Shown here piece after piece: positions 1 through 12,573 of a stretch of 34,866 nt of DNA. The number at the start of each line of letters is the position of its first letter. Within the stretch, counting starts at the first letter, position 1. A program made the translations under genes and the position numbers. A model generated the notes under the pieces. It was given only the letters and a program-made list of their open reading frames with translations. It was not told the DNA's origin and made no database searches. The stretch lies in the NCBI GenBank assembly GCA_007123885.1, contig SLGC01000108.1:1-34866 (forward strand). Reading direction: 5' to 3'. The DNA is from Bacteroidales bacterium. Its GTDB lineage: Bacteria > Bacteroidota > Bacteroidia > Bacteroidales > PUMT01.

Positions 1-1136
1 GGATCCAGGCCATCATAAAATTGCATGCCCTTCACATCTGAACCAAAATCATCATCCTGGAAAAAGACGGTGGCGCGAAGTCTGGGATCTTTATCCTCAA
101 AAGGCTGATAACCATTATCGTAAAGAAAATCCGCCCCTAATCCGGGCTGATTCGCAGAACCATCAATATTTTCATATCCAAGAATAAACTCAAGTACAGG
201 ATTAAGTCTTCCGCCCTGGCCCGCTGAATAGTAATGAGGTACATTGTTTGTAATCCAGCCATGACCGATATTAGGCCCGTCGTAAACCCTCTCGAAGATC
301 ACTTCACTATTGCCTTCGTCAAGAAATATGTTTCGGTAATTGTCAGCCTTATTAGCATGCTCATTGTAGAGCGAGTACCTGCCTGACTGGATTACTGAAT
401 TGGCAGCCGCAGAGGCCTTGGTGAAAAATTCATTTGTACGGCCAGCGGGAATACCCACCAATCCGTTTGCCTGAACCGAACCATATTTTGCAATAGATGC
501 GGTCCACAGGTTAGCTCTTGCCTTTAGCGCATACGCAGTCCATTTATTAATTCGACCCGGTGGCCTGTGATTTTCGCTCAATAACCCGATGGCTATATTT
601 AAGTCTGAATCGATAAAATCGGCGAGTTCCTCTTCAGTGCTGCGCCTGGTGTATTTTTTATCAATCTCACCAAAAGGATCGAGCACGACGTCCACCAGGG
701 GAACGCCGCCATACCGTTTTTGCATTTCAAAATAAACTGCAGCCCTGATAACCCTGACCTCACCTTCCAGCTGGTCTTTGGAAGACTGGATCATTTCAGC
801 ATCACCTATCTTCTCAAGGAAGCCGTTGATTCTTCTTATATAGCCATAATTCCAATAAGCTATGGGGTCACTCGTACGTGACATGGTGCCCCTTGTTATT
901 GCATTTTCATTCTCGGAATGATCGGTTGCTTCATCGCTGTAAGTAGCCCAATTAGTGTTAAATGCTGAAAATGGGAATTCAGTGTATAACCGGGTAACGT
1001 ACGCATCGATCATCGATGGAGTTTGCCAGACATCGGCATCGGATATTTTATCCAATGGCTGCCTGTCAAATATATCATCCCCGCAAGATCCAAACAGGAA
1101 TAAAAATATAATATATATATATGCTATCTTTTTCAT
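1..1136 (-). CDS. SusD/RagB-family outer-membrane nutrient-binding lipoprotein, 3' end cut by window
   Basis: This is the surface glycan-binding partner of the SusC channel next to it. The reading frame starts with an ATG whose complement is at 1134-1136 and stays open to the window edge, giving about 378 residues; family members usually have 450-600, so the C-terminus lies outside. The first residues are MKKIAYIYIIFLFLFGSC, a type II signal peptide with a lipobox and Cys18 as the predicted acylated residue. The mature start (GDDIFDRQPLDKISDADVW) is a typical SusD opening, and the later GEVRVIRAAVYFEMQKRYG stretch fits the TPR-like helices that carry the family. Only 10 bases separate it from the stop of susC upstream, so the two are co-transcribed and probably form one outer-membrane complex. 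The substrate cannot be read from the visible part. Confidence 0.93.
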   Translation of the reverse strand, partial: MKKIAYIYIIFLFLFGSCGDDIFDRQPLDKISDADVWQTPSMIDAYVTRLYTEFPFSAFNTNWATYSDEATDHSENENAITRGTMSRTSDPIAYWNYGYIRRINGFLEKIGDAEMIQSSKDQLEGEVRVIRAAVYFEMQKRYGGVPLVDVVLDPFGEIDKKYTRRSTEEELADFIDSDLNIAIGLLSENHRPPGRINKWTAYALKARANLWTASIAKYGSVQANGLVGIPAGRTNEFFTKASAAANSVIQSGRYSLYNEHANKADNYRNIFLDEGNSEVIFERVYDGPNIGHGWITNNVPHYYSAGQGGRLNPVLEFILGYENIDGSANQPGLGADFLYDNGYQPFEDKDPRLRATVFFQDDDFGSDVKGMQFYDGLD

Positions 1137-1146
1137 AATTTGATTT

Positions 1147-4100
1147 TTAAAAGTTAACAAGCACACCAACGTTGTACATTCCCATTGGCGGGTGATAATC
1201 GCCGAATGTACGACCTGGACTTGTATCAATTTCAGGATCCACATAGTCATTGATGTCTGAGATGGTGAGGAGATTATACCCCGAAACATATATCCTGAAA
1301 TTACTTATCCCTGCGCGGCTGGAAACAGAAGTGGGAATAGTATAACCCAGCTGTAAATTTTTGAGGCGTACATATGATCCGTTAATCAGCCAGTGCTGCG
1401 AGTTGGCGTAGCTTCGATGGTTTCTGTTAGCCCTGTCATACCGGTATATCGGCCACCTGGCATCTGTATTGGCAGGTATCCATGGGTTTTCAGGAGTGTA
1501 GAACTGTTCATACATAAAAGTCTGCGGACTAATGCCCGAGTAAAAAGGCATCATCAGGTAACCCGTGCCGTGCCTCAGATTGAAATTATAGAGCCCGGCT
1601 CCCTGCCACAACATATTAAAGTCAAATCCTTTCCATTTAAGCGACATCTGCAGACCATACATCAACCTTGGCATGGTACCTCTTCCGGCTATTATCATGT
1701 CCTCGTTAGTTATCCTGCCATCACCATTGGTATCGATGAATTTCACATCGCCCGGCATAATGGTGCGGTTACCCTGTCCGTCAATATCCGCCCAGTTATC
1801 AATCTCTTCCTGTGTCTTAAAAAGTCCGTCTGTCGGCAGGGTCCACCATCTATCAGTCCATTGTCCTATCTGGTTGCCCCTGCGCCATGCCTCCATAGAT
1901 GCATATTCAGGTTCATCCCTGAATAAAAGTTTTTCACGGTTCCACGCAACATTGGCACCAATGGTATAAGAAGTATTGCCTATTCTGTTCATATGGTCCA
2001 GAGATAATTCCATTCCCCGATTATCATACTCACGATAATTCTCCCTTGGCATGGTAGCACCAACCACATCGGGAATATCCCTGCTGCGGGATCCAAGTAC
2101 ATCGGTTCTCTTTCTGTAGAAGTAGTCGATATAGCCTCCAAGCAGGTTGCCAAAAAGGTTAAAATCCAAACCTATATTCGAAGCGGTCATCTTTTCCCAT
2201 GTTATATAGGGATTGGGAAGTGCATCTTCGATTATTGAGGGCACTACCTGGTTTCCTTCAAAAATGTAACGGCTGCTCAGCGAATAGGTTGACAGGTACT
2301 GGAAGTCGCCGGCACGGTCATATCCTAGTCTGCCGTGAGAAGCACGTATCTTCAGATTATGCACGAACGGCAGGTTGTCACTTATAAATCCCTCCTCAGA
2401 GATGCGCCACCCTATGGATACCGAAGGGAAAACTCCCCATCGTGTTTCAGGGGGAAAGTTCGGCGAGGCATCCCACCTGCTGTTAACTTCCAATAGATAT
2501 TTTCCCTGGTAATTGTAATTGAATCTGCCTATATAAGCTTTTCTTCCCCCTTCTCTTCCAACCCCTGAATTATCCTTGTTCATATCAGGTCCGGCAAAGA
2601 GGTAGTTAAGCGGGAATTCATAGTCCCGTCTTGATGCCCAATAGCGGTCATAAGTATCGGATAATAATTCATACACAAAAAGAGCGTTGAAATTGTGATC
2701 ACCAAGCCCTCTGTCCCATGTCAAAAAATACTGCTGGTTTATATTTTGAGTGATGCTGTTATCTTCAAACAATTCTGCAGAGGAACCTAATACCCTGCGA
2801 ACGATATATTCGTCCGTTTCGGGAATGTAATCATACTGGTTAACTGCTATCTCCTTATCCTTGAACCGGTAATAGGCACGGTTCATATCATAGACTGCCC
2901 GGGCCCTGAAACCTAAAGGCAGATTATAGGAAAAGTTCAATTTTCCATAACCATAGAGCCTGTTCCATTTTTTGAAACCTGAAATATCCTTGCTTGCAAC
3001 GGCAACAGGGTTAGTTGAAGCACCGGATCCAACTGCAGGGACTTTTGTGGGATCGGGATAAGGATCGAGCGGCCAGTAAGGGCGGTTACGAAATATTACT
3101 GTCATAAGGCCTCCGACACGGGAAGTCCGTTCCAGGTCTGCCCTGGGTCCGATATAATCCTGGTTGGTGAAAGAAAGATCAAATCCGACATCGAAATTAT
3201 CCGTTAACTTCACATCAACATTCGAGCGCAGAGAAACCCTGTTATGATCGATATCGTTTGATTTTAACATTCCGCCCTGGTTTAAGAACGAGATAGATGC
3301 AAAATATTTGTTTCTGTCAGTCCCCCCCCTCACATTCAGATTATGCTGATGTTGCGGTGCAAAAGGCCTTAATGTGGCTGCAACGACATCGACATTGGGG
3401 TAATTCACCGGATCCGATCCATCTCTGAATGTCTGGATCTCCTCTTCAGTCCACGGAAAAGATGTTTTTCCTTCATTGAAATTCGCAAGGTTTTCCATCT
3501 GGGCATATTGGTATGATGCCACAGGTTGCTGCATTTGTGTTATGTACTGCAATGCATAATTGCTTGAGTAGGTAAATTCCGGCGGTGATTCCCTGCCGCG
3601 TTTTGTTGAGACCAGAATTACCCCGTTACCCGCTCTGGCTCCATATACTGCTGCAGATGCACCATCTTTAAGGACACTTATATCTTCAATTTCACTGGGA
3701 TCCAAATTATGGAAATAGCGGGTCGAAACAGGAGTTCCATCAACAATGATAAGAGGGGAGCCAAATCCGCGGATATTCATGCTTATCTTGGTATCGCCGG
3801 GCTGGCCCTGCGTATTCTTTATGAATATCCCGGGTGACCTCCCCATCAAACTCTGCGTCAAAGTAGGCACCGGAACATCGGAAAGTCCCTCGGTATTGAC
3901 AACGGTGATACTACCCGTAAGGTTGACCCTTCTTTGTGTTGCGTAACCCACAACTACAAGCTCGTCAAGAAAGCGCACATCCTCGACCAGTTCTACATTG
4001 ATAACATTCTGCTCACCGATGGCTATTTCCTGGGAAACGTAGCCTACATAGGAAAATACAAGAACTGCATCACGAGATGGTACTGTCAATCTATACTCTC

Positions 4101-4590
4101 CATCAACTCCGGTAGTTGTTCCCATTGTAGTTCCCTGTACTAAAATGGTTGTACCCGGTAGCGGATACCCGGTAACATTATCGGTAACCTGTCCGGAAAT
4201 TACGATTTGCTGTTTCCCGGGCCAGTTTGTGGTTATCGCGATAATATTGTCTTCAAATATCCTGTATGAGGTATTTTCATTAGAAAAAAGAATTTCAAGA
4301 ATATCCTCAACATTATTATTTTCAGCAGATAAGCTGATTGTTCTTTCCAGATCCAACTGATCCGTACGATATAGGAATTTATACTCGCTGCCGGCTTCTA
4401 TTTCCTGTAAAACATATCCCACACTAATATCCTCATAATTGAAATTAAAAGCTGGCTTTTGAGAAAACACCGAGCCAACAGCATTAAAAATGGTTAGCAT
4501 AAAACAAAGTACCAGTAATTTCATAATTCGGTAGGTTTTCTGATTTACACTGCTAACATACAGCAGTTTGATAATTGGTTTTATTTTCAT
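1147..4590 (-). CDS. SusC/RagA-family TonB-dependent outer-membrane receptor with STN signalling domain
   Basis: TonB-dependent channel that imports glycan fragments or another bulky nutrient. The order of parts is: signal peptide ending near SVFSQ, an STN domain (about residues 47-120), a carboxypeptidase-regulatory-like beta domain (about 130-203), the LDELVVVGYATQRR TonB-proximal segment, a plug with the SusC signature VLKDGASAAVYGARAGNG, and a long beta barrel ending in an aromatic residue (VGVLVNF). I chose the start at 4590 (1147 residues). An in-frame ATG at 4683 lies inside a perfect hairpin and would add an unsuitable leader, and a later Met at 4524 is also possible. An STN domain marks receptors that signal through a FecR-type anti-sigma factor, and such a gene is directly upstream. 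susD follows after 10 bases. Substrate unknown. Confidence 0.95.
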   Translation of the reverse strand: MKIKPIIKLLYVSSVNQKTYRIMKLLVLCFMLTIFNAVGSVFSQKPAFNFNYEDISVGYVLQEIEAGSEYKFLYRTDQLDLERTISLSAENNNVEDILEILFSNENTSYRIFEDNIIAITTNWPGKQQIVISGQVTDNVTGYPLPGTTILVQGTTMGTTTGVDGEYRLTVPSRDAVLVFSYVGYVSQEIAIGEQNVINVELVEDVRFLDELVVVGYATQRRVNLTGSITVVNTEGLSDVPVPTLTQSLMGRSPGIFIKNTQGQPGDTKISMNIRGFGSPLIIVDGTPVSTRYFHNLDPSEIEDISVLKDGASAAVYGARAGNGVILVSTKRGRESPPEFTYSSNYALQYITQMQQPVASYQYAQMENLANFNEGKTSFPWTEEEIQTFRDGSDPVNYPNVDVVAATLRPFAPQHQHNLNVRGGTDRNKYFASISFLNQGGMLKSNDIDHNRVSLRSNVDVKLTDNFDVGFDLSFTNQDYIGPRADLERTSRVGGLMTVIFRNRPYWPLDPYPDPTKVPAVGSGASTNPVAVASKDISGFKKWNRLYGYGKLNFSYNLPLGFRARAVYDMNRAYYRFKDKEIAVNQYDYIPETDEYIVRRVLGSSAELFEDNSITQNINQQYFLTWDRGLGDHNFNALFVYELLSDTYDRYWASRRDYEFPLNYLFAGPDMNKDNSGVGREGGRKAYIGRFNYNYQGKYLLEVNSRWDASPNFPPETRWGVFPSVSIGWRISEEGFISDNLPFVHNLKIRASHGRLGYDRAGDFQYLSTYSLSSRYIFEGNQVVPSIIEDALPNPYITWEKMTASNIGLDFNLFGNLLGGYIDYFYRKRTDVLGSRSRDIPDVVGATMPRENYREYDNRGMELSLDHMNRIGNTSYTIGANVAWNREKLLFRDEPEYASMEAWRRGNQIGQWTDRWWTLPTDGLFKTQEEIDNWADIDGQGNRTIMPGDVKFIDTNGDGRITNEDMIIAGRGTMPRLMYGLQMSLKWKGFDFNMLWQGAGLYNFNLRHGTGYLMMPFYSGISPQTFMYEQFYTPENPWIPANTDARWPIYRYDRANRNHRSYANSQHWLINGSYVRLKNLQLGYTIPTSVSSRAGISNFRIYVSGYNLLTISDINDYVDPEIDTSPGRTFGDYHPPMGMYNVGVLVNF

Positions 4591-4597
4591 AGTTTTG
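4567..4597 (+). promoter_or_regulatory. Bacteroidetes-type promoter facing away from susC (antisense strand)
   Basis: The plus strand has TTTG at 4567-4570 and TAGTTTTG at 4590-4597, separated by 19 bases. This matches the known Bacteroidetes primary-sigma consensus (-33 TTTG, -7 TAnnTTTG, about 19-20 bases apart) with no mismatch. It overlaps the susC start codon and points into the susC leader on the opposite strand. No plus-strand open reading frame of note follows, but an intrinsic terminator does. Confidence 0.6.
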
Positions 4598-4602
4598 TAA
4601 TG

Positions 4603-4697
4603 AATAGTTGAACATATCCGCATGGATTCTCTAAAGCCAAAGCGGAATTTAACTGTTTTACAGCCGGAAAATGACTTCACCATTTTCCGGCTTTTTT
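4603..4697 (+). ncRNA. Predicted cis-antisense small RNA over the susC 5' leader (DonS-like)
   Basis: Inferred RNA of about 95 nt, running from a start a few bases after the -7 element (4590-4597) to the end of an intrinsic terminator at 4697. It lies wholly within the fecR-susC gap and is complementary to the susC leader just upstream of the chosen start codon. Small RNAs of this size, antisense to susC-type leaders, are known in Bacteroides (the DonS type) and repress polysaccharide-utilisation loci. The sequence shows promoter, terminator and position; expression and function are inference. The exact 5' end could differ by several bases. Confidence 0.5.
4662..4697 (+). terminator. Intrinsic terminator on the strand opposite susC
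   Basis: A perfect 12-bp stem (AGCCGGAAAATG at 4662-4673, its complement at 4681-4692) with a 7-base loop runs straight into six T residues (4692-4697) on the plus strand. On the minus strand the hairpin has no T tract, so it does not look like a terminator for susC. No plus-strand protein gene ends here, which is why it is assigned to an antisense RNA. It could also act as a hairpin in the susC leader mRNA. Confidence 0.75.
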
Positions 4698-4750
4698 AAT
4701 CCCGGTTATCGGATTTTTAAAGCAGGAGGTTTTTGCATAGGCAACTTCGG

Positions 4751-4780
4751 TTTAGTTTAGTTTAGTTTAGTTTAGTTTAG
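4751..4780. repeat. TTTAG pentanucleotide tandem repeat, six copies
   Basis: Six uninterrupted TTTAG units lie between fecR and susC, about 160 bases upstream of the chosen susC start. The unit length is not a multiple of three, but the tract is non-coding. Slippage would change spacing in 5-base steps, so it could tune or switch the susC promoter if that promoter spans the tract. I found no consensus minus-strand promoter here; an ECF-sigma promoter would look different. Confidence 0.85.
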
Positions 4781-4928
4781 CTTATTGTTAATATTGCAAT
4801 TGTACATTCTTTACTGGTTCAATTTTTATCAGAATTCAGAATTGGTTTTAGGTGCAAATATTACCGGATTGATGTTTCAGAGATGTTTCATTGCCTTCAG
4901 GTTAAAATTAAGTGTGCAACACAGGTCA

Positions 4929-6038
4929 TCATCTGGTAATGAATATGGTATCATTTTGTATGTGATAGTTAAAAGGAGAAACGTACCTTAGAGCACTTAG
5001 CGCCTGTTCCATCGTGACCTCTTCAAACCTTCCCTTGAACCGCTTATTTCTAATTTCGTCATCCTTAATAATTAACCTTGCTCCAAATCTTCTCTCAAGT
5101 TTCACAGCAATACTTTCGAAAGGTTCATCGTCAAAAATAAGCTTGTTTTCTTTCCATGATGTAAATATCTCGGGATCAATACCGCGGCTTAAAATGATCT
5201 TTGGTAAACCGGTTTCTGTATCTCTTTCTCTTTTTACCACATGCCCTGGCCCTGGATCTTCAAATGCATCATGAACTTTCTCTTCTGATAATAATTCACC
5301 ACTCTTTTTGTAATAGGTTATCTGCTGATTCGGCTCAAGTATTAATCCTGCCTCCTTTGACCTGTAATTACTCCTGTTTATTTTTAATGATCCGGATACA
5401 AGGGTGGTCTGGATAATGTCTTCCCCGGGATATGACTTTACATTAAAGCTTGTCCCCAGGGCAATCATCTCAAGCTGGGAGGTCATTACGGTAAAAGGAT
5501 GTTTTGTGGATTGGTGTACAACAAAAAAAGCCTCTCCTTCAAGATTAACGGTACGGTCAAATTCACCAAAATTCACCGGATAACTCAATTTGCTTCCTGC
5601 ATTAAGCCATACAGAGGTGCTGTCTGAGAGTATTATATTACTTCGGGAACCAATGGGTGCTATGACCTCTATCTGACCGGGGATTGTGCCTGCATTTTTG
5701 CTGATAAAATAAAAAAGCAATGAACCGAAAGACATAAAAATAATTGCAACAGCTGCCCAACGGAAAGTTGCTGCAATAAGTTTTCTGGTATTAACCGGAC
5801 CGGAAATTTTTTTGCGGTGAAGGAGGCCGGATCTGAATTTATCATAGGCAGTCCTGTAGTTATACCTCTTATGGTTTAAAATTATATCAATGGAAGTCCA
5901 TAGTTTCTCCCTGGCAGCAAAATCTTCAATATTTTCTTCATTATTCTGGAACCATTCAAGGAAAGATCGTTCATCAGCGGCAGAATACTTTCCTGAAGTT
6001 ATGCGGAATATCAAGTCATTAATTTCTTTTTCTTGCAT
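4929..6038 (-). CDS. FecR-family anti-sigma factor with C-terminal DUF4974-like domain
   Basis: Inner-membrane anti-sigma regulator that holds an ECF sigma factor until the STN domain of a TonB-dependent receptor signals across the periplasm. The 369 residues show a cytoplasmic N-terminal part (about 1-85, starting MQEKEINDLIFRITSGK), one membrane segment (about 90-112), the FecR domain (about 122-225, with GSRSNIILSDSTSVWLNAGS and EGEAFFVV) and a C-terminal beta-alpha domain (about 300-369) of the type that contacts the receptor STN domain. It lies upstream of susC on the same strand, which fits a sigma/anti-sigma/receptor system. The cognate sigma-factor gene, normally just upstream, is absent: the next gene upstream is an unrelated small membrane protein. 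338 bases separate it from susC, so susC probably has its own promoter. Confidence 0.92.
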   Translation of the reverse strand: MQEKEINDLIFRITSGKYSAADERSFLEWFQNNEENIEDFAAREKLWTSIDIILNHKRYNYRTAYDKFRSGLLHRKKISGPVNTRKLIAATFRWAAVAIIFMSFGSLLFYFISKNAGTIPGQIEVIAPIGSRSNIILSDSTSVWLNAGSKLSYPVNFGEFDRTVNLEGEAFFVVHQSTKHPFTVMTSQLEMIALGTSFNVKSYPGEDIIQTTLVSGSLKINRSNYRSKEAGLILEPNQQITYYKKSGELLSEEKVHDAFEDPGPGHVVKRERDTETGLPKIILSRGIDPEIFTSWKENKLIFDDEPFESIAVKLERRFGARLIIKDDEIRNKRFKGRFEEVTMEQALSALRYVSPFNYHIQNDTIFITR

Positions 6039-6267
6039 CTTTTAATTTTTACTCTATATAAAAGACAACAAGAGCAGCATATACAGTTAAAAATAGTTAA
6101 TAAAATAATCCTTTTTTCACAAGTCCAACATAAGTGCTTGCCTTTCTGATTGCCTCTTACCCATCCGCTATGGTGGCCCGGCTACTTGTCCCCTGTGAAA
6201 ATTACCGGGAAAATGGCTTGCTATCGATCATTAGAGCATTTTGAATGCAACCGGAAACTTATAATTT

Positions 6268-6726
6268 TCAGCTCCTTAATGTTTTAAGAACCTCTTCCGG
6301 AGAGGATGTGGAGAGGACAATATCAAAATCGCCCCTCAGTATTTTCAGGGCATATATCTCCTCATCAATTTCCTGCCTGGTCCTGACACCCAGGGCCCGA
6401 AGTACCGGTACCGGCGGGCACCACCCCCGGAGTCCGTGCTGTAAGAGGAATCCGGCTACAAACCCGGAAAGCACGAACCATTTTTTATTTACAAATGTTC
6501 CCAGTATAATTCCTGTCAGGGCAAGAGACGATGCATTCACCTCAATATATCTTTCTATGTCCCATTCTTCCCTCAGTTCTTCCAGCCTGTGGGTTATTTC
6601 AATTGCCGACAAATTTCTGTAGTTCCTCATGTTGTCCAGTATATTCTCATCGACCATCTTTTTTCTTTTTTCAGGGGAAACTTCCCTGACGCGATCCCGG
6701 ACTTGTTCCTGCTGTTTCATATCCAT
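6268..6726 (-). CDS. Small membrane protein, YgaP-like/DUF2892 transmembrane domain
   Basis: A 152-residue protein with a charged, helical N-terminal half (about 1-62) and two short hydrophobic segments (about 66-80 and 83-97), followed by GWCPPVPVLRALGVRT and a C-terminal helix (EIDEEIYALKILRGDF). The hydrophobic pair followed by a GWCP motif is the pattern of the YgaP-type transmembrane domain found alone or fused to rhodanese domains. There is no rhodanese domain here. Function is unknown; a link to sulfur or redox chemistry would be a guess from the YgaP fusion. It stands alone: 229 bases to fecR downstream and 303 bases to the next gene upstream. It occupies the place where the sigma-factor partner of fecR would be expected but is not a sigma factor. 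Confidence 0.65.
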   Translation of the reverse strand: MDMKQQEQVRDRVREVSPEKRKKMVDENILDNMRNYRNLSAIEITHRLEELREEWDIERYIEVNASSLALTGIILGTFVNKKWFVLSGFVAGFLLQHGLRGWCPPVPVLRALGVRTRQEIDEEIYALKILRGDFDIVLSTSSPEEVLKTLRS

Positions 6727-6914
6727 TAAGTTTACTGGTTAATAAATAGATTTGCACACCCATAAAAGTATGCCAGTCAACTAATAAACAATAGTAATAC
6801 CAATAATGTTTGTGCGCAGCAATGATATCAATTTATGGCCGACTGACCCGTAGATGAGTTGTATCCTTTGATAGCTGGATTTAACAAGGACCTTCGTGGA
6901 GTTATATTTCCAAA

Positions 6915-6941
6915 GGCGTGGAAGCTTGCAAAAGCTTCGCC
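6915..6941. repeat. Inverted repeat in a 303-base intergenic stretch (6727-7029)
   Basis: GAAGCTT at 6921-6927 and AAGCTTC at 6932-6938 form a 7-bp stem with a 4-base loop, extended by GGC/GCC at the flanks (6915-6917, 6939-6941) with a small bulge. It lies downstream of the minus-strand SSP411-like gene and could help end its transcripts, but only three T residues follow on that strand. The rest of the 6727-7029 gap shows no open frame or motif that I recognise. Confidence 0.35.
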
Positions 6942-7029
6942 GGGGCAGCTACACACTAAATTCATAACCGGATACGGCAGGGGTTATGCCTAAACCAGGG
7001 GCAGTCCCTGTTTGCAAAATATCTCTGCT

Positions 7030-9078
7030 TTACCGGTTATTCCTGATCTGGTCCAAAGCCAGGGAAAGATCCCGTACGGGCATTTTGCAACTGCCCAGGG
7101 TACAGGCATAGTACCAGGTTTCCCCTGCCTTGCACCTGCCGGCAAAAACCGGTATTTCATTATTTTCGTGCAGTGAACCGGCGACCAGTGCATCCGGAAG
7201 ATAGAGGGTGTTGATGTCCCTGATCCTTCTGTCGGCTTCAGTACCGCAAACAACCAGATTATAGAAAGGAAAGACATAATTTAAAAGCAGTCTGCCCCAA
7301 TTGGCAAAACTGGTGCTTTGTTCAACCATTTGGGAGCTGACATCCCTGAGCATTCTGAAACTGAGTCTTTCCCATTGGCCCCTTTCAAAGAGATGGGACA
7401 GATACAGAAGATTGGCGGCCATAACACTATTTGAAGAGGGAATAACATTATCAGGTATCTCATAATATTCCGACTTGAGGCTTTCGGCACTTACCGTGGA
7501 AAAACGCAGCAAATTGGTAACCGGGGCAGAAAAATTTTCCAATGTATATTCCGTTAGTTCCCGGGCTTTAAGAAGGTAACGGGGTTTTGCCGATACTTCA
7601 TAAAGCCTGATCAGGGAATTGATCAGCAATGCATAATCCTCCAGGAACCCGTCTATTCGGGGACCGGAACCGCGGGGCATGCGAAAGACCCTTCCCTCTG
7701 TTACGGAATTATCAAGAATAAAACCTGCAGCTTTTTCAGACTTTTGCAAAAAAGATCCATCTCCGAATGCAGCATACGCATCTGCCAGACCTTTGATCAT
7801 CAGGGAATTCCAGGATGTAAGTATCTTGTTGTCCAGTCCGGGCCGGGGTCTTTTCAACCGTTCCTGAAGCAGCTTTTGATTGGCATGCCGGATTATCTTC
7901 CGAACATCCTCCGGATCCAGATTGTTTTTACGGGCAAAGATCTCGTCACTTTCATCCCGCAGCAGTATATTTTTGCCATCTTCCCACAGCCCCTTTTTCC
8001 CCACCTGGTAATAATCCTTAACCAGCCGGGAATCTTTACCAAGCAATTCATCAATTTCCTTTTCTTCCCATAAATAAAATTTACCCTCCTCTCCTTCGCT
8101 GTCGGCATCAAGGGCTGAATAATAAGCGCCATCCGGCGAACCGAGTTCCCTGTCGGCAAATTCGACAGTCCGGTAGACAACATCCCTGAACAGTTGTTTT
8201 TTTAATAACTTCCAGGCATTGGAATAGAGGGAGATCAATTGTCCGTTATCATAAAGCATTTTTTCAAAATGTGGCACTTTCCAAAACTCATCAGTTGAAT
8301 ACCTTGCAAACCCACCCCCGATCTGATCAAAAATTCCACCCATGGCCATTCCCTCAAGGCTTATATCAACCTGTTCCAATGCTGAGCTGTCACCCCTCTT
8401 ATAATGATAATGGAGCAGGAATTCAAGATTGACCGGCAGGGGAAATTTGGGTGCCCCCGAAGTGCCTCCCATCAAACTATCCATATGTTTCATTATATTA
8501 TTAAAGACCTGGTCAGCATCGCCTTTTTTTAGTGATTTTTCACTCTCATCAGGTTTTATGAAGCTTGAATTTACCACACCGGTGGTAAGTTTTTCAGCCT
8601 GCTCAATCAGTTCATCGGAGCGGGCCTGGTATAGTTCAATTACTTGAAGCAGAACCTCCTTCCACTGATCCCTGGGAAAGTAGGTGCCTCCCCAGAAGGG
8701 TCTGCCATCAGGAAGTGCAAAGCAGTTGAGAGGCCAGCCGCCCCGCATGGTCAGAAGTTGTACCGCGGTCATATATAAATGGTCGATATCAGGGCGTTCT
8801 TCCCGGTCAACCTTGATACATATAAAATTGCGGTTCATAATTTCGGCTATTTCCTCATCTTCAAAACTTTCTTTTTCCATTACATGGCACCAGTGGCATG
8901 CAGAATAACCTATGCTGACAAGCAGCGGTTTGTTTTCGCGTGATGCCTTCCCGAGAGCTTCTTCGCCCCACGGATACCAGTCCACCGGATTGTGAAGGTG
9001 TTGCAGCAGATAGGGACTTGTTTGTCCCTTTAGGTGGTTGACTGTCAGATTCTTGTTCTTCATGGCAAAGTTTTTCAT
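7030..9078 (-). CDS. Thioredoxin-domain protein of the SSP411/YyaL (DUF255) family
   Basis: The 682 residues match the usual length of this family, which joins an N-terminal thioredoxin-like fold to an (alpha/alpha)6-barrel related to N-acylglucosamine 2-epimerases. The N-terminus carries the family hallmarks: [21 protein letters not shown] (about 21-41), the redox motif CHWC at 61-64, KVDREERPD (about 89-97) and [13 protein letters not shown] (about 113-125). The C-terminal half contains [20 protein letters not shown] and [16 protein letters not shown], typical of the barrel. No signal peptide is visible, so it is probably cytoplasmic. The biochemical role of the family is not settled. The start could be Met1 or Met6 (9063), since family similarity begins at about residue 10. 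The DUF4197 gene is divergent, with 126 bases between them. Confidence 0.93.
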
Positions 9079-9204
9079 ACAAATTCATAACTCCTTACGG
9101 TAATTCAAACAAAAAAAATGAAAGAAGGTTTTAACAGTTATGGTATCAGTTTTGTTAAAATGCAACAAGCGGGAAATAATCCCGTATGATCCTGAAAACA
9201 CATT

Positions 9205-9951
9205 ATGATGATAAAAAGAATTTTACCTCTGATTTTGTTAGTAACATTTACAGGCTGCGAAGAACTGAGACGTATTGCCGATCAGGCAGAAAGGCATCAG
9301 CCCCTGACGAACCGGGAGGTTGTAGAAGGTCTCAGACAGGCTCTTGTCATAGGATCGGATTCTGCCGCCTCCCGTCTGGCTATACGGGATGGATATTACC
9401 GCGACGAACTGGTAAGGATAATGCTCCCTCCTGAAGCTCAGGTTATCACCGAACATCTTTCGCTTATTCCCGGAGGTGAAAAATTAATCCAGGATGTTAT
9501 CCTGCGTATCAACAGGGCGGCAGAAGATGCCGCAAGAGAAGCTGCCCCGGTGTTTGCCCGGGCAATTAGCGGCATGACAATACAGGATGGGTTCAGCATA
9601 CTCAGAGGTGAAGAAGATGCTGCAACACAATACCTCAGGGCCCGGACCGGGAACGAATTGTTTAACCTCTATCAGCCCCGGATAAAGAATTCAATTGAAA
9701 AGCCTCTTGTCGGTAACATTTCCACCCTTGAATCCTGGAATACACTGACAACACAGTGGAACAGGCTGGCAGGATCGGCTGCCGGAAGAATATATAACCT
9801 TGAACCCGTGGATACTGATCTTGCTTCCTATCTGACAGAACGGGCACTGGATGGATTATTCCTTAAGCTTGCGCAGGAAGAACTGCGAATACGTACCGAT
9901 CCCCTCGCACGGGTAACAGACCTGCTCAGGAGAGTATTCGGAAATCAATGA
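9205..9951 (+). CDS. DUF4197-family lipoprotein
   Basis: A 248-residue protein with a lipoprotein signal peptide (hydrophobic PLILLVTFTGC, Cys18 predicted acylated). The mature part has the DUF4197 hallmarks: LTNREVVEGLRQALVIGSDSA near residue 35, then RDELVRIMLPPEAQ, and a helical remainder. Family members are all-alpha envelope lipoproteins with no established function. It is the only plus-strand gene in the first 27 kb, divergent from the SSP411-like gene and convergent with the Nudix gene 141 bases downstream. The 9952-10092 gap holds no clear terminator. A start one codon later (9208) is equally possible. Confidence 0.88.
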   Translation: MMIKRILPLILLVTFTGCEELRRIADQAERHQPLTNREVVEGLRQALVIGSDSAASRLAIRDGYYRDELVRIMLPPEAQVITEHLSLIPGGEKLIQDVILRINRAAEDAAREAAPVFARAISGMTIQDGFSILRGEEDAATQYLRARTGNELFNLYQPRIKNSIEKPLVGNISTLESWNTLTTQWNRLAGSAAGRIYNLEPVDTDLASYLTERALDGLFLKLAQEELRIRTDPLARVTDLLRRVFGNQ

Positions 9952-10092
9952 TCAACTTCTGCCCGGCAGATCAACGATCCCTTGACTGACCTTTGACAGG
10001 CCTCATATGCAATATTGTTCATGCAACTGCACATGGGTGCAAAATTCATTTCTAATGTCACCTGGTACCATGTAGTATTCAACTGCATCTGA

Positions 10093-10794
10093 TCAGGACA
10101 GGGGCATGAAAACATGTTTTTCGAGGTATTCTGTGTATTTATCCCTGTTGAAACTATAATACCGGTCAACTGTTTCTGATTGTTCCGCACTACTTTCAAC
10201 AGGAACCAGTACCCCGAGCTCACGCATTTTCCCGCTGTAATACCCTGAGGGGGATTGATTTTCAAAAACGGTGTCGAAAAGCCGGTCGAGAACCTCCGGT
10301 GAAAACTGTTCATCAAGCAGCTCAAAAGCTCCGCCGCCAAAACGCACTTTATCATTCAACCTGGATATCGCTGTTTTTAAAATGAGGTCATGATCGAATG
10401 CCAGGGGCGGAATATCGGTCAATTTGAACCACTGGGCATCAGCAGCGTCATCGCCGGCAACAACCTTGAATTCCGACATTTTCAGCAGACCAAGATAGGC
10501 CACTGTGATCACCCTGCCCCTCGGATCCCTGTCAACATCGCTGAAAACATCCAGTTGTTCCAGGTCTGCCCGGTCAATTCCTGTTTCCTCCCCCAACTCT
10601 CTATGTGCACATTCAGTTATTGTTTCGTCCATATCCAGGAAACCTCCGGGAAAAGCCCATTTGCCTTTGAAAGGTTCCTTGCCGCGTTCGACAAGGAGGA
10701 TATTCAGATCTCTGCCATCAAAACCGAAAAGCACGCAGTCGGCACTTACCGCCGGCCTTGGATAATCATAACAATGTTTTTGCTTTGCCATCAA
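10093..10794 (-). CDS. Nudix hydrolase-domain protein with NrtR-like C-terminal winged-helix region
   Basis: The N-terminal two thirds is a Nudix domain with an intact Nudix box at residues 51-73 (G-x5-E-x7-RE-L-x-EE-x-GI: Gly51, Glu57, Arg65, Glu66, Glu69, Glu70, Gly72), so the metal-binding residues for hydrolysis are present. The C-terminal part (about 150-228: AFELLDEQFSPEVLDRLFDTV, then SGKMRELGVLVPV and YYSFNRDKY) matches the winged-helix tail of NrtR/ADP-ribose-sensing regulators. It may therefore be a transcription factor that senses a nucleoside diphosphate derivative, a hydrolase, or both. No NAD-biosynthesis or sugar operon is next to it, so the target is not evident. Met1 and Met2 are both possible starts. 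Confidence 0.87.
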   Translation of the reverse strand: MMAKQKHCYDYPRPAVSADCVLFGFDGRDLNILLVERGKEPFKGKWAFPGGFLDMDETITECAHRELGEETGIDRADLEQLDVFSDVDRDPRGRVITVAYLGLLKMSEFKVVAGDDAADAQWFKLTDIPPLAFDHDLILKTAISRLNDKVRFGGGAFELLDEQFSPEVLDRLFDTVFENQSPSGYYSGKMRELGVLVPVESSAEQSETVDRYYSFNRDKYTEYLEKHVFMPLS

Positions 10795-11031
10795 ACATAA
10801 TTTAATTATAACTTCTTAATTTCAATCTCAAAAACGCGTAAACCCTAAGGTTACCATCCTCTTTCGGGTTCGATCCGGGAAAAAAATAATCCGGCAAATC
10901 ATGCTGTTATCCATTATAGAATAAGCCGATCGACCGGAAATCAATAGGATTCCTATTTTCCACAGCAGATAGTGATTAACTCTACCACAATAACTGCATC
11001 TTTCCCGGAAGGTTATTTATGACGAAGTTTC

Positions 11032-12573
11032 CTATCCGGCAGCAATCTGTCCGGTCACGAAAAGCTCCCACTGTTCAAACTGTTCTTCAAGCATTACCCT
11101 CGGCACCTTTGTCTGCCCTCCCTTTTTTTTATTTGCTTCGGCCCACCGGTAAAAAATGTCGGCCGGAACCAGTCTGGTTTCTGGATCATTCAAAGCCTTT
11201 GTACGGGCAACCTTATAATTCTTATTCATATCCTTATAAATATTGTCAAGCCGGCCGGCAAGCTCTGATTCACTAATACCGGGATCAACATCCCTGCATC
11301 CCAGGTACCAGCGGTGAACATACCTGTCATTTTCATACCTGACAGCGCTGACAGTAAATTCCTTTATATCCAGATCGTATTTTAATTCCAGTTCTTTCAT
11401 AGCCTGTATCATCTGGTATTCTGACAATTGTGATCCAACTATGTTCAGGTAAGATTTCGTTCTCCCTGTAATTTTTATTTCTGCTTTTTCCTTATCCGTG
11501 AATTTAACGGTATCTCCGATCATATATCGCCACGCCCCTGCTACCGTACTGATTATCAGGATATAATCTATATCCTCCTGCACCTGTTCCAGGCCGAGTG
11601 CCCTGGCATCCCCGGCAACATTACCGTTTTCATCTATATTTTCGGGTGAAAGGGGCACAAATTCAAAATATATGCCATTGTCCGGGAAGAGCGCCATCGA
11701 GGTTGTATCCTTTCTCAACTGTGTGGCAAGATATCCTTCTGATGCAAGATAGGTGTCAAGAATAATGACAGGCCTGCCGAAGATCTTCCGGAAACTTTTG
11801 CTGTACGGATCAAACGTGATGCCTCCGGAAGTATATACCTGCAGGTTTGGCCAGATATCATGGATATTCTTTATATTGTTATATCTTATTACTTCCCTCA
11901 GCATCAATTCTATCCATGCCGGAATACCGGAAAGGCCTGCAATATCCCATTCAGGTGCCTTTTTTGCAATCTGTTCCACCTTTTCATCCCAGTTATCCAT
12001 GGCGGATATTTCCGGCCCCGGCCTGTAAAATCCTTTGAACCAGAAGGGAAGATTATAGGCTGAAATACCGCTGATCTCACCTTCAAGGTGTCCCTTTACT
12101 TCCTTAAGATTGGTACTGCTGCCAAACATCAGCACCTCTTTTTGAAAAAATGAAGCCGGCAGATTCAACTCGGCCAGGCTCAATACCTGCTTAATGCCCC
12201 CATTCCGTATTGAGGTAAGCATTTCATCGGTGACGGGAATATATTTTGAATTGCTTGTTGTACCGCTTGTAAGCGCAAAGAAACCGGGTTTCCCGGGCCA
12301 GGTCACATCTTCCGCCCCCTCATGGACAACTTTCCACCACCGGGTAAACATCCCGTCATAATCATAAAAAGGAACTGAGAGTGCAAATGCCTCCTGTATG
12401 TCATTTTGAGACAAAATTTCCCTGAACCTGTGATATTTACCGAATGAAGTGCCTTCAGCTTTTTCCAGGAGATATTTGAGTGTTTCATGTTGCGCCTGAC
12501 CAGGGTCAGGATTTGACTTTACATTGTAGGAAAGCTCTATTGCCCTTTTTATCAGTTCTCCGATTATTGCCAT
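11032..12573 (-). CDS. GH3-family acyl-adenylate-forming protein
   Basis: A 513-residue protein of the GH3 family, best known from plant acyl acid-amido synthetases and common but uncharacterised in Bacteroidetes. The nucleotide-binding motif I is seen as LTSGTTSNSKYIPVT (about 101-115). YTSGGITFDPY and DTYLASEGYLATQ in the middle correspond to the next conserved motifs, and YMIGDTVKFTDKEKAEIKITGRTKSYLNIVG, near the start of the C-terminal lobe, is the third ATP-binding region. It probably activates a carboxylic acid as an acyl-adenylate and may join it to an amino acid or other amine. The neighbours are separated by more than 230 bases on each side and give no clue to the substrate. No signal peptide. 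Confidence 0.9.
   Translation of the reverse strand: MAIIGELIKRAIELSYNVKSNPDPGQAQHETLKYLLEKAEGTSFGKYHRFREILSQNDIQEAFALSVPFYDYDGMFTRWWKVVHEGAEDVTWPGKPGFFALTSGTTSNSKYIPVTDEMLTSIRNGGIKQVLSLAELNLPASFFQKEVLMFGSSTNLKEVKGHLEGEISGISAYNLPFWFKGFYRPGPEISAMDNWDEKVEQIAKKAPEWDIAGLSGIPAWIELMLREVIRYNNIKNIHDIWPNLQVYTSGGITFDPYSKSFRKIFGRPVIILDTYLASEGYLATQLRKDTTSMALFPDNGIYFEFVPLSPENIDENGNVAGDARALGLEQVQEDIDYILIISTVAGAWRYMIGDTVKFTDKEKAEIKITGRTKSYLNIVGSQLSEYQMIQAMKELELKYDLDIKEFTVSAVRYENDRYVHRWYLGCRDVDPGISESELAGRLDNIYKDMNKNYKVARTKALNDPETRLVPADIFYRWAEANKKKGGQTKVPRVMLEEQFEQWELFVTGQIAAG

Follow-up and report, generated by a model that had tools for sequence, protein, structure and literature searches.

A predicted DonS-type antisense small RNA opposite the leader of a FecR-linked susC gene in an uncultured lineage of the Bacteroidia

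Analysis of a 34,866-nt stretch of DNA (the window, an entire contig from a 4.5-Mb Bacteroidota draft genome of 463 contigs) leads us to predict that the strand opposite the leader of a susC homologue carries the gene of a cis-encoded, DonS-type antisense small RNA that would repress susC, a reading to which we give a probability of about 80%. A DonS-like RNA at this place had been proposed by an earlier, sequence-only reading, and such an RNA accords with the promoter and terminator that we describe here, with the predicted length and position, and with a conservation that is strand-specific and accompanied by covariation. DonS-type RNAs have so far been described from gut Bacteroides; we now find their anatomy, with its strand specificity, in a lineage that is distant and uncultured, and see its outline in flavobacteria and cytophagia as well. 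What was a Bacteroides phenomenon thus probably forms, throughout the phylum, a layer of control over nutrient transporters that goes with FecR-type susC genes.

The minus strand of the window reads fecR, a gap, susC, and a susD that is cut by the contig end (Table 1), where susD was named from its position and its lipoprotein-like start, and where the STN domain of SusC scores just under the Pfam cut-off. The best named relative of this SusC, encoded in a Prolixibacteraceae MAG, shares 49% identity with it, and at the full-length threshold there is only one orthologue in the genus, itself truncated at a contig edge. A less usual feature of the locus is that fecR stands without an adjoining sigma-factor gene: no gene for an ECF sigma factor was found in 6039-7030, where the upstream neighbours of fecR encode a YgaP-like membrane protein and a thioredoxin-like protein. 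Because no such gene adjoins fecR, FecR may pair with a sigma factor encoded at a distance.

Table 1. Features of the susC locus, numbered by position in the window
Feature	Position	Strand	Basis
susD homologue, truncated by contig end	3..1136	-	Open frame after susC
susC homologue (target gene)	1147..4590	-	Pfam: N-terminal STN, CarbopepD_reg_2, Plug
-33 element of antisense promoter, TTTG	4567..4570	+	Exact match, Bacteroidota primary-sigma consensus
Spacer of antisense promoter, 19 nt	4571..4589	+	Exact
-7 element TAGTTTTG (TAnnTTTG), abutting susC start codon	4590..4597	+	Exact
Predicted antisense RNA, ~96 nt: 5' hairpin (about 4603-4657) and terminator hairpin	4602..4697	+	Sequence only
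Intrinsic terminator of antisense RNA	4662..4697	+	12-bp stem, 7-nt loop, T-run
Candidate leader mini-ORF, MQKPPALKIR then stop, opened by GCCTATG	4706..4738	-	In-frame stop statistics
GCCTATG sense element, upstream of hairpin	4736..4742	-	Survey enrichment
Seven tandem GTTTA copies (CTAAA on sense), between fecR and mini-ORF	4750..4784		Tandem Repeats Finder score 63
fecR, anti-sigma regulator, upstream of susC on same strand	4929..6038	-	Pfam: FecR and FecR_C

Promoter, terminator and the start of susC

The longest susC frame opens at ATG 4683, and a signal-peptide-like MKLL is found at 4524. Among the 87 STN-type SusC genes that we collected, an upstream start recurs approximately 124-126 aa before the carboxypeptidase-like domain, and by this distance, kept in relatives, the true start of the window susC is most likely ATG 4590. 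With susC starting at this ATG, the antisense -7 element directly adjoins the start codon, which the predicted RNA leaves uncovered, spanning leader positions from about -12 to about -107. The sequence-only reading had described a no-mismatch TTTG-19-TAGTTTTG promoter that overlaps this start codon; the promoter is exact (4567-4597, plus strand) and does lie at the start of susC on the opposite strand, and the overlap is corrected to a -7 element that abuts ATG 4590.

The TTTG/TAnnTTTG consensus is documented for the primary sigma factor of the phylum (PMC7366714). Scanning both strands for TTTG-(18-22)-TAnnTTTG identified this single match in the 34.9 kb window, with 0.95 matches per window expected from a dinucleotide model and 0.23 for the exact 19-nt spacer, and a scan for sigma-70 sites was uninformative (27 sites versus 25.7 expected), its consensus being of the E. 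coli type.

The perfect 12-bp hairpin is located where it had first been described, with its stem 65 nt from the -7 element: the pairs occupy 4662-4692 and are followed by T4693-4697, giving the six T residues of the original description only when the paired T4692 is counted. This terminator is the strongest among the 15 terminator-like sites in 1-12000, and its T-run is present on the antisense strand only. The proposal of a transcript of approximately 95 nt over the susC leader agrees with the length predicted from promoter and terminator (Table 1), and the RNA from 4603 to 4700 is predicted to fold at -33.1 kcal/mol (z = -6.5 versus shuffles). We likewise agree that no protein frame is involved, in that a coding role for the 25-aa plus-strand frame inside the predicted RNA (4622-4699) is rejected by the alignment of relatives, where no start codon is kept at that place. 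In Rfam, no family reached its gathering score at the tested loci, and the weak matches returned (IS102, P31 and BTnc049) were far under their cut-offs.

Antisense anatomy across SusC leaders of the phylum

Our survey covered the leaders of 85 STN-SusC genes, nearly all with FecR detected upstream, and of 104 non-STN SusC genes, sampled in the window's family and in genomes across the phylum, and used simple rules to define start codons and terminators. Strong antisense terminators were present in 47 of 85 STN-SusC leaders versus 6 of 104 non-STN SusC leaders (p about 1e-14, a value that, like the other p-value of this survey, overstates independence because leaders share ancestry), strong sense terminators were present in 1 and 8 of these leaders, respectively, and shuffled antisense leaders yielded 0.6 strong terminators. 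This difference, taken with the expectation for the window, rejects a chance pairing of promoter and terminator. After removal of similar leaders, 43 of 80 STN-SusC leaders contained an antisense terminator, the RNAs predicted in the survey measured 71-139 nt (median about 92), and about half of the FecR-SusC leaders were without a detectable terminator. The antisense anatomy is largely restricted to FecR-linked STN-SusC leaders and rare elsewhere.

Exact TAnnTTTG was located at the start codon in 23 of 43 de-duplicated relatives with the terminator versus 6 of 37 without it (p = 9e-4, subject to the same shared ancestry), i.e., -7 motif and antisense terminator co-occur across STN-SusC leaders. 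In the 43 terminator-bearing leaders the antisense letters beside the ATG read T100 A91 n n T93 T93 T77 G74. The starts of non-STN SusC genes contain the exact motif in 2 of 101 cases, which excludes a generic start-codon context as its sole source; part of the conservation could still serve translation, because the motif overlaps the start context of susC. A search of the same antisense strand in relatives had been named as a check of the prediction, and it demonstrated that the putative -7 motif and the predicted terminator recur, in outline, at FecR-linked susC leaders phylum-wide, with the -33 TTTG at an 18-22 nt spacer only weakly kept (7 of 43 relatives). A -33 element is likewise not identifiable in Flavobacterium johnsoniae (PMC7366714).

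The FecR association had been taken to place this locus in a different regulatory class from most described cases, a view that both the literature and our survey contradict. A FecR-linked susC is instead the expected setting, because host-glycan PULs are usually those under ECF/anti-sigma control (PMC11697453, PMC11501099), and because mucosa-glycan PULs are where DonS-type RNAs have been described (PMC7366714).

As a control for our search, we applied it to genomes of Parabacteroides chinchillae, Phocaeicola vulgatus, Bacteroides oleiciplenus, Bacteroides sp. 519, Seramator and Chitinophaga, where 36 of 70 STN-type SusC leaders contained an antisense terminator and 2 a sense terminator. TAnnTTTG was present 25-130 nt before the terminator in 34 of these 36, with predicted RNAs of 66-126 nt; the lengths reported for DonS-type RNAs are 78-128 nt (PMC7366714). 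In B. thetaiotaomicron, 32 PUL-associated antisense RNAs are annotated, some of them confirmed by northern blot (PMC7366714, PMC10994844), and in B. fragilis such RNAs are placed at 15 PULs in a passage that cites Cao et al. (PMC9723704).

Going by these reports and by those on DonS that cite Cao et al. 2016 (PMC7366714, PMC10994844, PMC11697453), the window RNA resembles DonS and the cis-antisense RNAs of Bacteroides PULs in being antisense to a susC leader, in its size class and in its PUL context: it would lie at 4602-4697 on the plus strand, opposite the 5' region of a minus-strand susC, and would be an RNA of ~96 nt with its own promoter and terminator, as judged from sequence, and our scan finds equal promoter-terminator anatomy in Bacteroides-group genomes. 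It differs in that its lineage belongs to the uncultured Bacteroidia, the comparison being one of anatomy, and in that the -7 element at many Bacteroides loci is located ~55-75 nt upstream of the chosen ATG, whereas that of the window abuts the start codon. The GibS/FopS RNAs of B. thetaiotaomicron are also alike, in that FopS are transcribed from promoters of the primary-sigma type and repress susC mRNAs close to their start codons; however, FopS are for the most part intergenic paralogues, about 65-70 nt long, that pair in trans through an R1 5' seed common to them (PMC11697453), whereas the complementarity of the window RNA is to the leader encoded opposite it.

Strand, structure and competing explanations

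Because inverted repeats fold on both strands, we used a strand-neutral rule to search the STN leaders for hairpins. The imperfect pairs of these hairpins comprise 33 that are G-U on the antisense strand versus 7 A-C (G-U on the sense strand), and a tract of at least five T lies behind the hairpin in 35 leaders when the antisense strand is read, versus 1 for the sense strand. The bias in G-U pairs and that in T-tracts both point to an RNA transcribed from the antisense strand. Attenuation of the sense strand through an intrinsic terminator was rejected on the single sense terminator among the 85 STN-SusC leaders.

Alignment of the window sequence with five relatives (n = 6) gave a structure that combines the terminator with a long 5' helix and an inner one, where 88% of cells are paired and nine pairs are changed on both sides; 0 of 500 shuffles were as good, and slid controls were far lower. 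The covariance model built from this alignment scores the window locus, whose sequence belongs to the model, at 83.6 bits. A search of the whole genome (4.5 Mb) returned seven matches at E up to 1, all in susC leaders, with five on the antisense strand and two being weak reverses of the same sites, and the matches at C142, C328 and C284 lay outside the building set. In the genomes of the family, thirteen sites scored E < 0.05, three of which (L277, L279 and L281) are not beside SusC. One of these, L277 (G011:C221:8851-8948, plus strand; E 1.2e-5), is flanked by two open frames, has no SusC in its vicinity, and is possibly a stand-alone copy of the antisense RNA.

Within the genome of the window, antisense TAnnTTTG with an antisense terminator is also present at STN-SusC leaders on C303, C400, C455, C284 and C371, and at three further SusC leaders on C142, C328 and C98. 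The SusC genes at C142 and C328 (L012/L106 and L013/L107) encode no STN domain, have no detected upstream fecR and carry the same predicted antisense RNA, with covariance-model E values of 1.4e-5 and 6.7e-4, respectively, and at C142 a GH2-like enzyme gene (named by eye) is located divergently upstream.

If the locus is a cis-encoded antisense RNA gene, its RNA would be made constitutively under housekeeping control, and would pair with the leader of the susC mRNA over about 95 nt just upstream of the start codon. Pairing would shut the initiation region from -12 upward to ribosomes, in bacteria that probably depend on an open A-rich leader and not on a Shine-Dalgarno site, and the RNA duplex would be exposed to cleavage or decay. 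The transporter would then be silent until a sigma/FecR signal yields an excess of mRNA, and transcription against susC may add to the silencing. DonS is reported as a repressor (PMC7366714, PMC11697453), by a mechanism that the latter states as unknown. Repression at the window locus is probable, not proven, because some antisense/susC pairs of B. thetaiotaomicron correlate positively (PMC10994844).

The best-surviving alternative, itself unlikely in our view, makes transcriptional interference the main mode, i.e., polymerases would collide at the susC start, those on the sense strand coming from fecR or from a susC promoter, and the sequence of the RNA would matter little. At the start codon the antisense promoter does point toward approaching sense polymerases; however, the structure of the RNA is conserved and covarying, and DonS repression is attributed to the RNA in a passage citing Cao et al. 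2016 (PMC11697453). We are more doubtful still of a terminator that merely insulates fecR from stray antisense transcription, with the short RNA a functionless by-product. B. thetaiotaomicron has many antisense start sites, a good part of them weak, and AT-rich genomes are expected to hold chance promoters (PMC7366714), but a by-product of this kind accords poorly with a second, covarying 5' hairpin kept in relatives, or with an anatomy largely confined to FecR-type susC leaders.

An RNA that acts in trans on several susC leaders beyond its own, in the manner of FopS, we regard as similarly improbable. Two loci on other contigs, L002 (C303) and L003 (C400), share a near-identical terminator hairpin, GATTGGGAGAACCCCCATTCTCCCAATC, which is one base shorter at L029 (C98), and all three susC leaders share a near-identical stem, GATTGGGAGAAC..ATTCTCCCAATC, that could permit cross-talk between loci. 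These hairpins and the strong model match in a relative away from any SusC (G011:C221) favor action in trans; however, hairpin and stem sequences mostly differ between susC loci, as cis pairing predicts. Least probable of all is that no antisense RNA is made and that the hairpin belongs to the leader of the susC mRNA itself, or is a dyad in the DNA to which a regulator binds. An inverted repeat folds both ways, and the model weakly matches the opposite strand of the same sites, but it is the antisense strand that holds the T-tract and the majority of the G-U pairs, sense terminators are rare and the -7 motif tracks the terminator.

A sense-strand element and a candidate mini-ORF

The antisense RNA reading provides a searchable signature, i.e., an antisense -7 box at the start codon or close to it, a CCGGGAAATG..CATTTCCCGG-T6 hairpin, and GCCTATG upstream. 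The last of these, a sense element that often opens a start-stop mini-ORF, is a new lead, and our search of the literature on it found nothing relevant. Across 80 STN leaders, GCCTATG occurs in 20 sense and 0 reverse copies, often 15-40 nt upstream (sense) of the hairpin, and its density is 1.9/kb in terminator-bearing leaders versus 0.28/kb in non-STN leaders.

We examined 53 sites in related leaders containing either GCCTATG or GCCAATG. An in-frame stop occurs within one codon at 26 and within six codons at 43 of these, compared with 7 and 6 sites (one codon) and 18 and 14 sites (six codons) in the other two frames, and with 96 of 590 other ATGs of the same regions, where the stop falls within one codon. 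All three stop codons occur. The frames often consist of start, one codon and stop, as in ATGAAGTAA, ATGAACTGA, ATGTAA and the like, and four non-STN leaders hold the motif with longer frames. This suggests that GCCTATG and GCCAATG sites open a mini-ORF, but GCCTATG may instead be a promoter box for a sigma factor.

In the CopA/CopT-tap-repA system of plasmid R1, an antisense RNA covers a leader that may also hold a small leader ORF. We raise, as a speculative extension, that FecR-type susC genes phylum-wide share one ancient leader module, made up of the putative GCCTATG mini-ORF and the antisense-covered region, with an antisense RNA that would begin beside the susC start codon and end shortly before the mini-ORF. 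In such a module the antisense RNA may prevent ribosomes loaded at the mini-ORF from going on to translate susC. If true, a CopA/tap-like device would serve transporter control across the phylum; the likeness to the plasmid system is an analogy only. The tandem GTTTA repeats immediately upstream of GCCTATG are absent from the five nearest aligned relatives, and their copy number could vary, altering promoter spacing.
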